Source: Erinaceus europaeus
Lineage: Eukaryota; Chordata; Mammalia; Eulipotyphla; Erinaceidae
DNA: 64,000 nt
NCBI RefSeq assembly: GCF_950295315.1
Contig: NC_080171.1
Location: 29,580,682 to 29,644,681, forward strand
Direction: 5' to 3'
In this document: piece after piece, positions 1,150 to 52,560 of the stretch
Position numbering within the stretch: the first letter of the stretch is position 1
How the letters are laid out: each line of letters begins with the position of its first letter
Notes under the pieces: generated by a model
Database searches by the model: none
What the model was told of the DNA's origin: nothing
The model's input: the letters and a program-made list of their open reading frames with translations, nothing else
Program-made: the position numbers and the translations under genes

Positions 1150-1282
1150 CTCTCGGGGGATTGGGCAGTGGCACACCAGGTTAAGCACACATAGCACAAG
1201 GCCTCCAGGAGTGGTGGTTTGGTAGTGCAGGCATCAAGGCCCAGCGATAACTCTGGAGGCAAGTAAATAAATAAGTAAATAG
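1150..1282 (+). repeat. SINE-B, internally deleted copy
   Basis: The head (GGGCAGTGGCACACCAGGTTAA) joins directly to the 3' segment (GGCCTCCAGGAGTGGTGG... GATAACTCTGGAGGCAA) and an AAATAAAT tail. SINE-B is my name for the tRNA-derived SINE of this genome with GTCGCTTCAC in the body, CTATCCAACAACGACATCAA downstream, and in long copies an extra ATGGCCTCCAGGAGC tail. Confidence 0.75.
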
Positions 1283-1440
1283 GTGCTAGCCATCATTTAT
1301 TGCTTTATTGAAATAATTGGATTACTCATCCACTGTGCAGCTAAGTAATCTTAAAATTATAATCAACCTTGCTTCCCACTTTTGCTGTTTTTATGTTTCT
1401 AGATTGTCTACACTATTCAGTTACTTGGCATTCCTGCTTC

Positions 1441-1600
1441 TACTAATCTTTTTTTTTTTTTTTTTTTTAATAAGAGAGGCACATAGAGAAAGACGTAGAG
1501 AGATGAGGGCATTACTCAGCTTTGGCTTATAGTAGTGCTTGGGACTGAACCTAGGACCTCAGAGCCTCAGGCGTGTTGTCCCCTAGCCTTTTTATATATA
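1441..1600 (-). repeat. SINE-D (Tyr/Met-tRNA-like short SINE), minus
   Basis: On the plus strand the copy reads poly-T, GAGAGGCACATAGAGAAAG, CAGCTTTGGCTTATAGTAGTG, GGGACTGAACCTAGGACCTC. SINE-D is my name for the family whose minus-strand signature is CAGCTCTGGCTTATGGTGGTG; the tRNA origin is only presumed. Confidence 0.65.
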
Positions 1601-1609
1601 TATATATAT

Positions 1610-1790
1610 TTATTTATTTTCCCTTTTGTTGCCCTTGGCTTTTTTTTTCTTTTTGTTTTGCACACTATTTATTATTTTAACCAGTTCAGTTCTGGCTTAT
1701 GGTGGTGTGGGGGACTGAACCTGAGACTTTGGAGCCAGCCTCAGGCATGAGAGTCGCTTTGCATAACCATAATTCTATCTACCCCCCGCG
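1610..1790 (-). repeat. SINE-D, minus
   Basis: The copy has TTCAGTTCTGGCTTATGGTG, then GGGGGACTGAACCTGAGAC, TCAGGCATGAGAGTC and GCATAACCATAATTCTATCTACCCC. It begins with an imperfect T-rich tail. Confidence 0.7.
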
Positions 1791-1794
1791 CCTG

Positions 1795-2060
1795 TTTTAA
1801 TTTTTATTTGGTTATTTACTAATAAGAGAGAAAACCAGAGCATCACTATGGCACACATGATGCTGGAGATTGAACTCAAGACTTCATGCTTGAGAATCCA
1901 AACGTTATCTCTCCGTCTGCTAGAAATGTTTTTCTTGTTCTAGAGCACTCTCAGCCCTGGCTCATGGTGGTGCGGGGGACTGAACCTGAGCCGTCCAAGC
2001 CTCAGGCATGGAAGTCTGTGGCATCGGTTAAGTGCTGGTTGTGTGCCCCTAGTTTTTTTT
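1795..2060 (-). repeat. two SINE-C/D fragments in series, minus
   Basis: The first (to ~1920) reads AACCAGAGCATCACTATGGC and GATTGAACTCAAGACTTCATG. The second reads CTCAGCCCTGGCTCATGGTG and GACTGAACCTGAG. Together with the two copies before it this forms a SINE cluster of about 600 bp. Confidence 0.6.
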
Positions 2061-2064
2061 TTTT

Positions 2065-2600
2065 TTATATAATTTATTTCTTTATTGGGGAATTAATGTT
2101 TTACATTCAACAGTAAATACAATAGTTTGTACATGCATAACATTCCCCAGATTCCCATTTAACAATACAACCCCCACTATGTCATTCATCATCTTTCATG
2201 GACCTGTATTCTCCCCACCCACCCACCCCAGAGTCTTTTACTTTGGTGTAATACTCCAATTCCATTTCAGGTTCAACTTGTGTTTTCTTTTCTAATCTTG
2301 TTTTTCAACTTCGGCCTGAGAGTGAGATCATCCCATAATCATCCTTCAGTTTCTGACTTATTTCACTCAACATGATTTTTTCAAGGTCCATCCAAGATCG
2401 GCTGAAAACGGTGAAGTCACCATTTTTTACAGCCGAGTAGTATTCCATTGTGTATATATACCACAACTTGCTCGGCCACTCATCTGTTGTTGGACATCTG
2501 GGTTGCTTCCAGGTTTTGGCTATTACAAATTGTGCTGCCAAGAACATATGTGTACACAGATCTTTTTGGATGGATGTGTTGGGTTCCTTAATCTCTTTTT
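2065..2600 (-). repeat. L1 3' end, minus strand, 5'-truncated
   Basis: The left edge TTTCTTTATTGGGGAATTAAT is the reverse complement of an AATAAAGAAA-type L1 terminus. Further in are GACTTATTTCACTCAACATG and AGTATTCCATTGTGTATATA, the antisense of the classic mammalian L1 3' region. The open frame at 2305-2676 on the minus strand is a by-product of this repeat. Confidence 0.85.
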
Positions 2601-2624
2601 TATTTTTTAAAAGGTTTATTTTAT

Positions 2625-2760
2625 GGACTGGGCTAGATAGCATAATGGTGATGCAAATATGCAAAGAGACTCTCATGCCTGAGGCTCCAAAGTCCCAGGT
2701 TTAGTCCCCCACACCACCATAAACCAGAGCTGATCAGTGCTCTGGTAAAAAAAAAATAAT
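2625..2760 (+). repeat. SINE-D, plus strand
   Basis: The copy reads GACTGGGCTAGATAGCATAA, GACTCTCATGCCTGAGGCTC and AACCAGAGCTGATCAGTGCT, ending in an A-run. This is the family in its sense orientation. Confidence 0.75.
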
Positions 2761-2825
2761 AATTTTTTTTTTACTCTTACATCACAATAATAATTTTTTT
2801 TTTACTCTTACATCACAGTATTATC
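2751..2825 (+). repeat. ~37-bp tandem duplication at a SINE A-tail
   Basis: The segment TAATAATTTTTTTTTTACTC followed by TTACATCACA is present twice in direct succession. The duplication starts in the A-rich tail of the SINE before it, which suggests replication slippage. Confidence 0.8.
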
Positions 2826-2884
2826 AGTCATTATTAAATTACTAATAAAAATTTAAAAATATTATCATCCAACAATGAAAATTA

Positions 2885-3074
2885 TTTTATTTATTATTGG
2901 ATAGATACAGAGAACAATTGATAGGGGAGGGGAAGGTAGAGAGGGAGAAAGAGACAGAAAGACACCTGCACCTTTACTTCACAGTTCGTGAAGCTTTCCT
3001 ACTGCAGGTAGGGATCAGGGGCTTGAACCTGGGTCCTGGTCCACTTAACCAGGTGTGCCACCACCTTGGCTCCC
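2885..3074 (-). repeat. SINE-A, minus
   Basis: SINE-A is my name for the tRNA-derived SINE with GGTTGAGCGCACATGTTACA in the head, GGGGAAAGCTTCACGAG in the body and a CTATCCAATAAATAAA tail. Here it is antisense, with GGGGCTTGAACCTGGGTCCT and AACCAGGTGTGCCACCACC. Confidence 0.85.
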
Positions 3075-3207
3075 TCTTGTACTAATCTCAATCCTGACAT
3101 TTCTGTTTATTTGATTTTTATGTTTTATATTATGCTTAAGTAGCACATATCCTTCTCCCTTAAATAATAAATAATATTTATTTATTTTTAGCTTTTAAAA
3201 AATATTA

Positions 3208-20658: not shown

Positions 20659-20673
20659 CTGCCTTTCCTCCTC
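20659..20673 (+). repeat. target-site duplication (left) of short LINE copy 1
   Basis: CTGCCTTTCCTCCTC here is repeated exactly at 20868-20882. The 15-bp direct repeat brackets the insertion at 20674-20867. Confidence 0.9.
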
Positions 20674-20867
20674 CTTCTTCTTCTTCTAGCGTTTGCCCTT
20701 CTTCCGTAGCCAGTCAACAGCGTCAGGTTGAGCCTGATGTCTGCTTGTTGCTGGCTTTGAAAGTGACTGGGATCCATGTGGATTCAGTCGGCTAGGAAGG
20801 ATCGTCAGTTTCCCCAGTGAATGGGTACTCACGGGATGCACCACGAGAAGGTCGATCCAATGCATCC
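20674..20867 (-). mobile_element. short internally deleted copy of the novel LINE (copy 1)
   Basis: Read on the minus strand, the 194-bp insert starts at GGATGCATTGGATCGACC, runs ~125 bp through the family's 5' segment, then switches at about 20744/20745 (GCAG then ACATCAGGCTC) to the last ~60 bp of the family, ending CGCTAG and an (AAG)n tail. All coding sequence between is missing. Direct 15-bp target duplications flank it. Its 5' segment differs from the 45-kb copy by about 3 of 122 bases, so it is young. It lies antisense in an AGTPBP1 intron. A simple internal deletion and a template switch are both possible origins. Confidence 0.9.
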
Positions 20868-21189
20868 CTGCCTTTCCTCCTCTCTCTCTGCTCTCCAGAC
20901 CAGTCCAGATTTTACTTTTCTGTTTCCCCTTTCTGCTCTTGTTTTTAGATGCTGCTTGTGAGTGTCTTCTCTGACTGATGCTTCCTCTCATCATCTGCAC
21001 TTTTGTTGTGTTAAGGGTCTCACTTATTTCAGAGACTCATTTTTAACCCTAAGCATTATCTTGATTTGTAGTCTATCTTGTTTGTTTTCTGTGGTAACAT
21101 ATGACTGCTGGTAAACCTTGTGTTGTTTAATGGGAAGGTGTTGGATAAGTTGAAATGAAAAGACAGCCATTGGGTAGGTGACTAATCAG

Positions 21190-26058: not shown

Positions 26059-26201
26059 GCAACAGTTATATTTTTAATCTTAAGGAATCGCCTTACATAG
26101 TGTCATTACAAATCTGTATTCCCACCAGTGTTTTAGAAGGGTTTCTTCACTACCATCAATCTCTTCCCACACCTCTTTTTGATAAAAGCCAACCTAACAT
26201 G

Positions 26202-26435
26202 TTTGAAGTAATATCTCAGTGGTTTTTTGGTTTGTATTACCATGGTGATTTATGGTGCTGAGCATCTTTCCATGAGCTGGTTGGCCATTTGTGTGTCTTC
26301 TTTGGGAATTTATCTCTGTAGATCCTTTTCACATTTTTATTTAATTTTTGAATGTTTACCTACTAATTTTTTCGTTGAGGGGGTTGGTTAATGCTTTATA
26401 GTGCAGTCATTGATACATGAGTACAATTTTATTAT
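26202..26435. repeat. 234-bp duplicated block, copy 1
   Basis: Starting TTTGAAGTAATATCTCAGTG and ending GTACAATTTTATTAT, this block recurs at 28268-28501 with about 7 mismatches. It spans the end of an old L1 and the start of another repeat, so the junction itself is duplicated. Confidence 0.9.
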
Positions 26436-28129: not shown

Positions 28130-28265
28130 TTAATTTTTTTATTTGTGATTAATCATAGGGTATAAGACTGTAAGATTACAGTGTATGATTCCATATCATA
28201 CCCACCACCAATGTTCTGTGTCCCCTCCTTCCCACTTCCCAAAGATAAACACTATAGTTCTCACA
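28130..28265 (-). repeat. LR1 3' end, minus
   Basis: TTTATTTGTGATTAATCATA, GATTCCATATCATACCCACC and ACACTATAGTTCTCAC match LR1 ends at ~6740 and ~14760. Confidence 0.65.
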
Positions 28266-28267
28266 CA

Positions 28268-28501
28268 TTTGAAGTAATATCTCAGTGGTTTTTTGGTTTG
28301 TATTTCCATGGTGATTTATGGTGCTGAGCATCTTTCCATGAGCTGGTTGACCATTTGTGTGTCTTCTTTGGGAATTTGTCTCTGTAGTTCCTTTTCACAT
28401 TTTAATTTAATTTTTGAATGTTTACCTACTAATTTTTTCATTGAGGGGGTTGGTTAATGCTTTATAGTGCAGTCATTGATACATGAGTACAGTTTTATTA
28501 T
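28268..28501. repeat. 234-bp duplicated block, copy 2
   Basis: It is the second copy of 26202-26435, same orientation, about 97% identical. It is inserted between two LR1-like ends, and I see no clear target duplication. Confidence 0.9.
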
Positions 28502-45282: not shown

Positions 45283-45295
45283 AGTTGAAGATAAG
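45283..45295 (+). repeat. target-site duplication (left) of the 1.9-kb LINE
   Basis: AGTTGAAGATAAG here is repeated exactly at 47203-47215. It fixes both ends of the insertion. Confidence 0.93.
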
Positions 45296-45501
45296 AACGC
45301 GTTTGGCAAAGGACAGCCCCTCAACATTAAGTTGGAGGACTCGAAGAGCAGGACCAACAGCTTGAAAGCTGTCAGGAGCTACTTGTTGCTGGCTTTGAAA
45401 GTGACTGGGATCCATGTGGATTCAGTCGGCTAGGAAGGATCGTCAGTTTCCCCAATGAATGGGTACTCACAGGATGCACCACGAGAAGGTCGATCCAATG
45501 C
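45296..45501 (-). mobile_element. inverted 5' segment of the LINE (5' UTR and endonuclease start)
   Basis: Read on the minus strand it begins GCATTGGATCGACCTTCTCG, the same 5' end as the two short copies, minus their first four bases. Near its left end it codes for RVLQLNVEGLSFAKR, which matches the N-terminus of LINE APE-type endonucleases (a QxNxxGL strand). The segment stops there. It therefore supplies the family's 5' end and the beginning of its endonuclease. Confidence 0.85.
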
Positions 45502-45502
45502 T

Positions 45503-47192
45503 TTGAAGAGGGTTAAACCGGGAACGGCTGCTGGCTATGATAACATCACCCCAGAACTCATTCTTAACTTGGGCCCCGCGGCAAAGAAGTGGCTCACTTC
45601 ATTCCTGTCCCACATCTTGGAATCTGAATCTACGCCCAAAATTTGGCGTTGTGTGAAGATAATAGCGGTTTTGAAACCAAAGAAAGACCCAACACTGGCC
45701 GCCGGCTATAGACCAATTTCTCTCCTCTCCGTGTGTTACAAACTCCTTGAGAGGCTGCTTCTGTCACGTATTTCTCCTCTTACAGAGAAATTCCTATCAC
45801 CCGCCCAAGCTGGTTTCCGCCCAGGAAGATCTACCTGCGAACAAACCCTGGCCCTCTCAACTTACATTGAAAATGGATTCCAGAAGAATTTAAAGACGGG
45901 TGCTGTCTTTGTTGATCTCACAGCAGCCTATGACACGGTCTGGCACCGTGGTCTCCTAGTCAAGATCTCAAGATGCCTGCCTCCATGGGCGGCCAACACT
46001 GTATCGTTTCTTCTCCAAAACAGAAGATTCCGGGTGCATCTGGGTGACAAGTCTAGCAGATGGAGACTTGTCTCAAGTGGCCTCCCCCAGGGCTCTGTTC
46101 TGGCTCCTACGCTATTTAATATTTACATCAATGACCTCCCAGAAACTTCTTTAAGGAAGTTCATCTACGCCGATGACATCTGCTGTGCAACTCAGGCATC
46201 CAAGTTCGACATCCTCGAGGAAACACTCACGAAAGACATGTCTCTGATATCTGATTACTGTAAAAAATGGCGACTAATCCCTAGCACTGCAAAAAACGGT
46301 ATCATCTGTTTTCCATCTACACCATGCCTCGGCCTCGCGTGAGCTTAATGTGCAGCTTGGCGATACGAGAATCCGGCATGAAGCCCAGCCAGACTATCTT
46401 GGCGTTACTCTCGATCGCACCCTGTCATTTCACGAACATCTCATAAAAACTGCAGCAAAGGTGGGCGCGAGGAAAAACATCATTGCAAGACTGGCCAGCT
46501 CCTCATGGGGCGCGAGCGCTTCCACACTATGATCATCCTCTCTGGCATTATGCTATTCCACTGCAGAGTACTGTGCCCCAGTTTGGTTCCGTAGCCCCCA
46601 TGTCCACTTGGTCGATTCCAAATTATATTCCTCCATGAGGATAATTTCTGGAACCATCCATTCCACCCCGGTTCCATGGCTGCCAGTTCTTAGCAACATG
46701 GCCCCGCCAGATATTCGTCGGGATGCGGCATCATCTAAGTTCATTTCCCACGTCTACGCTCGACCGGACCTGCCAATATACGCAGATATCTTCGCCCACC
46801 CTGTCCAACACTTGATGTCTCGTCACCCAATCTGGTCCCCTATGCCTACACTGAACTTCTCTGTTCCAGACTCTTGGAAACAGAGTTGGCAGTCAGCTGA
46901 GGTAAAGAACAAACACCTCATCACAGACCCCTGCAGGCGTCAACCCAGCTTTGACCTAGCACGTTATGATTGGGCCCTCCTCAATCGCTATCGAACAGGC
47001 CATGGCTGGTGCGCTGCTATGTTCCATCGCTGGGGAGCCAGAGACGACCCGAACTGCCCCTGCGGCTCCAGACAGACAATGACCCACATAATCAATGACT
47101 GCCACCTCTCCAGATTCAAAGGAGGTCTCGAAACTTTACATCAGGCTCAACCTGACGCTGTTGACTGGCTACGGAAGAAGGACAAACGCTAG
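45503..47192 (+). pseudogene. LINE reverse transcriptase plus C-terminal domain, disrupted
   Basis: The frame opens LKRVKPGTAAGYDN (RT block 0/1 region). RT motif A is in FVDLTAAYD (~45908-45934), block B in GLPQGSVLAPTLF (~46078-46117), and the catalytic YADD is at 46166-46177. A one-base gain in the A-run 46291-46296 shifts the frame; the product continues in another frame with SRELNVQLGD and YLGVTLDRTLSF. A TGA at 46530-46532 stands where the family context predicts Arg (CGA to TGA, CpG decay). The C-terminus holds LNRYRTGHGW and a CPCG-x8-H-x4-C knuckle (~47065-47105), then WLRKKDKR and TAG at 47190-47192. This copy cannot make a full protein. I see no RNase H domain. Confidence 0.88.
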
Positions 47193-47219
47193 AAGAAGAA
47201 GAAGTTGAAGATAAGTAGG

Positions 47220-51934: not shown

Positions 51935-52560
51935 ACTTTAAGGCATATAGTTTCCTCTAACTTATGGATACATGTGCTCTGTCTCATGGGCCCTGGTCTA
52001 TATATATCCCAGTTCTGTGGCTTTGTTAGGAAGTGCACCACCCAAAATGGAACTAAGAAGTCCTATGAACTAGGAGAGTTTTCACCAGAGTAATGGAGCT
52101 GAATGGTTGATATCCCACACCTGGCATTTAAGGACACCGTCCCAAGTGAAATATGTCAAGGTGGCACTGGTTGCACTTCTTCTTCTTCTAGCGTTTGCCC
52201 TTCTTCCGTAGCCAGTCAACAGCGTCGGGTTGAAAGCTGTCAGGAGCTGCTTGTTGCTGGCTTTGAAAGTGACTAGGATCCATGTGGATTCAGTTGGCTA
52301 GGAAGGATCGTCAGTTTCCCCAGTGAATGGGTACTCACGGGATGCACCACCAGAAGGTCGATCCAATGCATCCCACTGGTTGCACTGATTTGGTTGAGAT
52401 CAGCAGATACAGCATCAAATGGTATAGATCGAGAGAAACATGAAGGAAAATGAGGCCCTACTCCAGAGGTTCCAGGACTGGGAGAAATGTGGATTTTACA
52501 GAAAATGGGGAAGGTTCCTGCTGCCTTGGAGCTTAAGATAGGAGGCGTGGTTTATGGAGT
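51935..52560 (+). repeat. LR1-related 5' part, plus, split by short LINE copy 2
   Basis: AGTGAAATATGTCAAGGTGG and after the insert GATTTGGTTGAGATCAGCAG, TTCCAGGACTGGGAGAAATG match 7100-7270. The insertion at 52178-52373 postdates this copy. Confidence 0.65.
52178..52373 (-). mobile_element. short internally deleted copy of the novel LINE (copy 2)
   Basis: The 196-bp insert lies between exact 13-bp repeats CACTGGTTGCACT (52165-52177 and 52374-52386). On the minus strand it starts GGATGCATTGGATCGACC, continues ~150 bp through the 5' segment to CAGCTTTCAA, then jumps to CCCGACGCTGTTGACTGG of the 3' end, CGCTAG and (AAG)n. The internal junction differs from copy 1 and has TCAA microhomology. The 5' segment differs from copy 1 by about 3 of 122 bases. 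No coding capacity remains. Confidence 0.92.

Follow-up and report, generated by a model that had tools for sequence, protein, structure and literature searches.

The window, a stretch of 64,000 nucleotides from the genome of the hedgehog Erinaceus europaeus, contains a LINE copy that raises the question of what kind of element it belongs to and how the copy came by its present structure. An initial annotation had read it as one of three copies of a young LINE family that is unusual for a mammal. We conclude, with a probability of about 0.9, that the copy is dead and 5'-inverted and belongs to an endonuclease-reverse transcriptase (RT) LINE, most likely the Vingi-1 of hedgehogs, and that target-primed reverse transcription with twin priming likely produced it.

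The RT motifs FVDLTAAYD, QGSVLAPTLF, and YADD that had been annotated all lie within a single open frame, which matches Pfam RVT_1 with an E-value of 1.5e-32 (Table 1). Directly after the stop codon, TAG at 47190-47192, comes the (AAG)n tail, and an exact 13-bp duplication, AGTTGAAGATAAG, is present on both sides of the copy, both as first reported. For comparison, when 2000 random pairs of stretches from the window were put through a similar test, just 14 had at least 10 bp in common. The C-terminal knuckle, previously given as CPCG-x8-H-x4-C, has the spacing CPCG-x6-H-x4-C, as identified by motif only.

Alignment of the window copy with L061, a copy described below, runs inverted from about 217 to 7 of the element and then in sense from 1383 to 3086. 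The window copy begins with ~206 bp of the element's 5' end in reversed orientation, and is therefore a non-colinear, partly inverted LINE. ATAAG, the end of the 5' target duplication, matches the element at the outer edge of the inverted segment. The endonuclease half is absent from the copy, and its frame is interrupted by one additional A and by a TGA codon; the copy is dead.

Table 1. Coordinates of the parts of the window copy and of the two short derivatives in the window
Feature	Position	Strand	Remarks
Type B derivative	20674..20867	-	element 2-129 joined to 3020-3086; 15-bp target-site duplication at 20868-20882 and 20659-20673
5' target-site duplication AGTTGAAGATAAG	45283..45295	.	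ends in ATAAG, 5 bases shared with the element at the putative second priming point
Inverted 5' end of the element, about 212 to 7	45296..45501	-	reverse alignment to L061
Open frame, 295 aa, RT core	45455..46342	+	first ~16 codons fall in the inverted part
Sense part, RT through C-terminal knuckle to stop codon; element from about 1383	45502..47192	+	
Run of 6 A (5 in most copies), frameshift	46291..46296	+	
TGA nonsense codon in the downstream frame	46530..46532	+	
(AAG)4 tail	47193..47204	+	adjoins the stop codon
3' target-site duplication AGTTGAAGATAAG	47203..47215	.	two-base overlap with the tail
Type A derivative	52178..52373	-	element 1-146 joined to 3029-3086; target-site duplication AGTGCAACCAGTG at 52374-52386 and 52165-52177

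At the frameshift, the window copy reads A AAA AAC where five A are usual. Genome-wide, at up to 2 mismatches, the six-A form of this RT site has 397 matches versus 10,076 for the five-A form (reversed control for the latter, 0). In a comparison of 30 six-A with 9 five-A copies, no position differed in frequency by 0.5 or more, and mean distances were similar within and between the groups (0.038, 0.040, and 0.043). Because the two kinds of copies are alike in positions and distances, the sixth A looks like a recurrent length change and not a lineage. A programmed -1 frameshift site at the A-run was also considered, and was rejected on the site counts, the lack of separating positions, and the similar distances. 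As a separate observation, three six-A RT sites lie in a row at C8:24099416, 24100120, and 24100825; their spacing of 704-705 bp resembles a small tandem array of a piece of the element.

The organization of the whole element was drawn from other copies in the 2.72-Gb genome. An RT search scored 133 of 52,538 candidates, and the 132 besides the window were 90-96% identical to its RT frame. L061 spans about 3.08 kb, with TGGGATGCATTGG at one end and the (AAG)n tail at the other, and is flanked by target duplications recognized by eye. L059 has a 911-aa open frame with PF03372 and PF14529, an N-terminal AP-type endonuclease, followed by PF00078, the RT; this frame ends inside the knuckle. L060 has a 669-aa frame that lacks the endonuclease part, starts before the RT, and continues through the knuckle to the stop codon, with the terminus ...RKKGKS, stop, (AAG)n. 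The element has no 3' untranslated region before its tail, which adjoins the stop codon, and the knuckle with the x6 spacing also occurs in L060 and L061 (motif only). L059 and L060, which jointly span the element from endonuclease to stop codon, showed no RNase H at E-values up to 1. Among the copies shown, none has the entire frame open, L059 and L060 each being partial. Some RT hits have equal open-frame lengths on the same contig, namely C95:42422371, 43735600, and 51708757 (341 aa, one TAA) and C5:38356631/38362965 (542 aa), which suggests segmental or inverted duplications carrying copies of the element. The window itself also holds a 242-bp direct repeat, 96% identical, at 26194-26435 and 28260-28501, 2 kb apart.

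Vingi is an Ingi-related clade, the sister of Ingi in the RT tree, and differs from Ingi in the absence of RNase H; the published Vingi-1 family reportedly has no RNase H, as in the copies here. The jockey/I-like placement first proposed for the window copy agrees with this clade. Kojima, Kapitonov and Jurka are said to have described in 2011 a hedgehog Vingi that forms a sister clade to Ingi and lacks RNase H, together with 11 non-autonomous Vingi families, and Vingi was reportedly absent from 33 other mammals and present in Atelerix. The family studied here has these features of Vingi: a single ORF that encodes an N-terminal AP-type endonuclease and then RT (in one copy, L059), no RNase H (L059 and L060), and a C-terminal CCHC-like knuckle (motif only). 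Relatives of about 1000 aa among the 120 listed from our protein search also hold endonuclease and RT in one protein. In addition, the window RT shares 24% identity over 227 aa with the L1 ORF2 of the same genome, which places it outside L1; that L1, 52-72% identical to the L1 relatives listed, is of the placental-mammal type.

Based on its architecture, host group, and the literature, the family is most likely the Vingi (Vingi-1) already described from hedgehogs, and not a new one. The clade name rests on these three lines. The first reading thus stands as regards a young, non-L1 family, and gives way to a most likely known hedgehog Vingi as regards its novelty. Hedgehog Vingi was published in 2011, as cited in the accessible parts of PMC3183009 and PMC5753468, and the former lists hedgehog Vingi-1N3_EE with 311 copies under 1% divergence. 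Compared by description with Vingi-1_EE and Vingi-1N of hedgehogs as these parts present them, our family is likewise a non-L1 LINE of a placental mammal with recent amplification and short derivatives; it differs in its 5' inversions, of which the same parts of PMC3183009 and PMC5753468 make no mention for the published family.

Assignment to another clade, whether an Ingi without RNase H, Jockey, CR1, L2, or a still unnamed one, appears very unlikely. The nearest relatives among the best 120 of 878 protein matches carry no species name, and the clade was assigned from architecture, host group, and the literature, both of which would allow it. However, the absence of RNase H, the I/Ingi-like knuckle, and the occurrence in a placental mammal of a very large, recently expanded family with internal-deletion derivatives, as the accessible part of PMC3183009 reports for hedgehog Vingi, argue for Vingi.

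The size of the family was estimated from exact and near-exact matches in the genome. The 3' end, searched as a 39-mer with up to 2 mismatches allowed, matches 36,504 times versus 0 for the reversed control, and the family is therefore not a product of chance. A 5' end pattern, searched under the same mismatch limit, matches 8,563 times (reversed control 0), a count biased towards short copies, from which the pattern was derived. The RT copies have a mean pairwise p of 0.038-0.043, a divergence of about 4%. Type A short copies, described below, have a mean pairwise p of 0.024 (n=19), 18 of the 19 having been chosen through an exact 5' match that favours young ones. With mammalian rates of 2.2e-9 to 4.5e-9 per site and year and a star-like history, amplification would date to about 4.5-9 million years for the RT copies and 2.7-5.6 million years for type A. 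The few-percent divergence among copies dates the amplification and not the arrival of the family.

The two neighbouring copies in the window, which had been counted with the long copy as three copies a few percent apart, are indeed 95.7-98.5% identical to parts of the long copy. They are, however, colinear sequences of only ~190 bp, and represent SINE-like internal-deletion derivatives of two types, A and B (Table 1). Genome-wide, at up to 1 mismatch, the type A junction has 6,029 matches and the type B junction 1,682 (reversed controls 0). Short copies were sampled by taking the first 20 exact 5' hits listed for the plus strand of C1, of which 18 were type A and 2 type B; the 18 include L068 and L079, whose BLAST alignments break at 145/3040 yet which have the same junction with small changes. 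Target-site duplications above the length threshold, mostly of 10-13 bp, were found in 17 of 22 short copies, with three of the rest having none and two falling below the threshold; a 20-bp flank match at L078 belongs to a neighbouring repeat.

From the 5' end the short derivatives retain ~130-150 nt, and from the 3' end ~58-67 nt, a length that counts the tail. At the type A break, TCAA is common to both sides, and at type B there are no shared bases. Splicing as the origin of the internal deletions was rejected, since neither junction shows GT...AG by eye. A 3' RNA hairpin was not found, with 130 and 198 of 200 shuffles folding equally well or better. By description alone, the derivatives fit the published Vingi-1N families. 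They were likely copied in trans by the protein of the same element, which would have to recognize the remaining 3' end. If they were copied by it, the ~58 kept 3' bases, almost wholly coding sequence plus tail, set an upper limit on what this protein needs for recognition.

We next consider the inversion. Pooling two selected sets of RT-bearing loci, 5' inversions are present in 5 of 42. The best RT matches after the window (L010-L038) comprise 3 inverted copies among 29 (L012, L027, and L028), along with 6 complete colinear and 20 truncated ones. The second set, L086-L098, consists of the first 13 exact hits on C1 of the five-A RT site, 13 of 20 regions first chosen; it includes 2 inverted copies (L087 and L088), 2 complete ones (L095 and L098), and 9 others. 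The first set was thus selected by RT score and the second by an exact 37-mer. Seven more inverted copies, the window's included, came from the window itself or from searches with its inverted segment and have no bearing on the frequency.

Inverted copies commonly carry target duplications. Four of the five in the 42-locus sample have duplications of 11-12 bp, L028 lying outside the check. The check covered 10 of the 12 inverted copies known, leaving out L028 and L054, and duplications of 11-13 bp were present in 8 of these 10: the window copy, L040 (by eye), and 6 of 8 in a further set. L041 and L050 showed none with the ends used, the 3' end of L041 lying off the locus and the end tested in L050 not being the outer one. 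For L088, the automatic best flank match was a simple repeat, and a 12-bp duplication, AGTGTGTCTGTG, was recognized by eye.

The extent of the inverted part varies among copies. Almost nothing was lost at the junction of L088 (inverted 1250-1065, sense 1251-3086) or of L054 (inverted 1714-1, cut by the locus end, and sense 1738-3080). The outer edge of the inverted part lies at element 215-227, near CTTATT, in the window copy, L012, L040, L049, and L058. This region may be a favoured second priming site, the clustering being due in part to selection by a query that ends there.

The structure of the window copy is most likely the expected product of twin priming, a mechanism read here from its product. 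The element protein would nick the target and prime on the (AAG)n end of the element RNA. The second target end, ending in ATAAG, would pair with the RNA near position 215 and prime a second cDNA running to the 5' end of the RNA. Joining of the two cDNAs would then yield the inversion seen in the window copy.

Descent of the window copy from an inverted-head source shared with the copy at C1:147518158 (L040/L084), with no independent twin-primed insertion, is unlikely. In favour of it, the exact junction of element 7 to 1383, searched with up to 3 mismatches, is found at only these two places in the genome, each with its own, different target duplication, and among 38 copies the window copy ranks third in nearness to L040 (0.0482, range 0.0443-0.0655). 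The two nevertheless have one rare variant in common, while the window copy shares one or two with 12 other copies, and L040 is not one of the 12 nearest neighbours of the window copy. Their inverted extents also differ, reaching 217 in the window copy and 227 in L040, and 2 bases overlap at the shared junction.

Comparison with other LINEs puts the proposed twin priming of the window copy in context. In the accessible part of PMC4245944 (Yamaguchi et al. 2014), an assay study, all 5' inversions described came from L1 in human cells, with the exception of one Nimb-2_DR insert in chicken cells; it is also suggested there that overhangs of ~5 bases may be too short for inversion, since the duplications at inverted L1 inserts measured 10-20 bp. 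The copies analysed here resemble those twin-primed human L1 inversions in their inverted 5' and sense 3' segments, with target duplications of 11-13 bp, and differ in belonging to another LINE clade. They fit the overhang argument of PMC4245944 through a LINE other than L1. This inversion error is thus likely not special to L1, the usual mammalian LINE. We see about even odds for a broader claim, that an Ingi/Vingi-kind LINE inverts ~1/8 of its RT-bearing copies in a placental mammal and that the host and a 3' overhang of more than 10 bases, not the L1 protein, decide inversion. In the literature searched, which did not extend to the original 2011 Vingi description, no description of 5' inversions of Vingi was found.

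With respect to the origin of the family, a protein search gave 878 matches (7,986 candidates scored), and the best 120 were examined, 10 with and 110 without a species name. The named relatives among these 120 are all arthropods apart from a tunicate, and come from Uroleucon (4), Cordylochernes (3), Phlebotomus, Phallusia, and Diaphorina. No mammal name occurs among the 120 listed. As a control, the L1 ORF2 of the same genome matches horse, donkey, dog, rabbit, pig, and other named mammals at 52-72%; wherever a listed relative of this L1 carries a name, it is that of a mammal, and never that of a hedgehog. The database therefore holds mammalian LINE proteins, and that none in the Vingi list is named as mammalian is suggestive only, given the 110 of 120 without a species name.

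The closest listed relative, P0006, is a 582-aa protein from a 2,072-base sequence-archive contig, 95% identical over the aligned part and 97% in the RT. It may be DNA of the same host or a close relative elsewhere, and its host would bear on the question of transfer. Besides P0006, RT identity to the listed relatives does not exceed 66%. A quick RT tree was built from 105 of the 120 listed rows, with near-duplicates dropped and 8 of the 105 bearing a species name; in it, the window family groups with P0006 (support 100) and then P0107 (80), inside a clade of 25 rows (99). The other rows of this clade, all without species name, have 59-66% RT identity, and the 8 named rows fall outside it at 45-51%.

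Entry of the family by horizontal transfer appears likely; no donor was found among the 120 listed relatives of 878. The accessible part of PMC3183009 similarly regards hedgehog Vingi as a likely older horizontal transfer. An ancient Vingi lineage that was passed on vertically from early amniotes onward and disappeared from other mammals is possible though doubtful. It would accommodate the old Vingi trace X12_LINE in human (PMC5753468), one pre-amniote Vingi fossil in human (PMC9004415), and Vingi in Anolis (PMC7561263), each as given in the parts of these papers at hand, as well as the lack of a close donor, the best listed RT identity besides P0006 being 66%. Against it stand the invertebrate identity of all 10 named relatives with no mammal among the 120 listed, the many named mammals that the same database yields for L1, and the grading of transfer as likely in PMC3183009. 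Partial texts of other studies place Vingi in Heliconius and Bombyx (PMC4016481) and propose horizontal transfer for RTE1_Sar of the common shrew (PMC6542046). The latter resembles our case as an unusual LINE in another eulipotyphlan ascribed to horizontal transfer; it differs in being of the RTE clade with nematode relatives, whereas the Vingi-type element here has no known donor.

Since the family is most likely already known, the main value of this analysis is to correct the reading of the window copy, which is dead, probably twin-primed, and no colinear new LINE, with SINE-like derivatives as its neighbours. The 5' inversions of a Vingi-type LINE are most likely the new detail. As non-L1 5' inversions in a mammal, they would provide a natural test of whether overhang length and host factors, and not L1 itself, permit twin priming.
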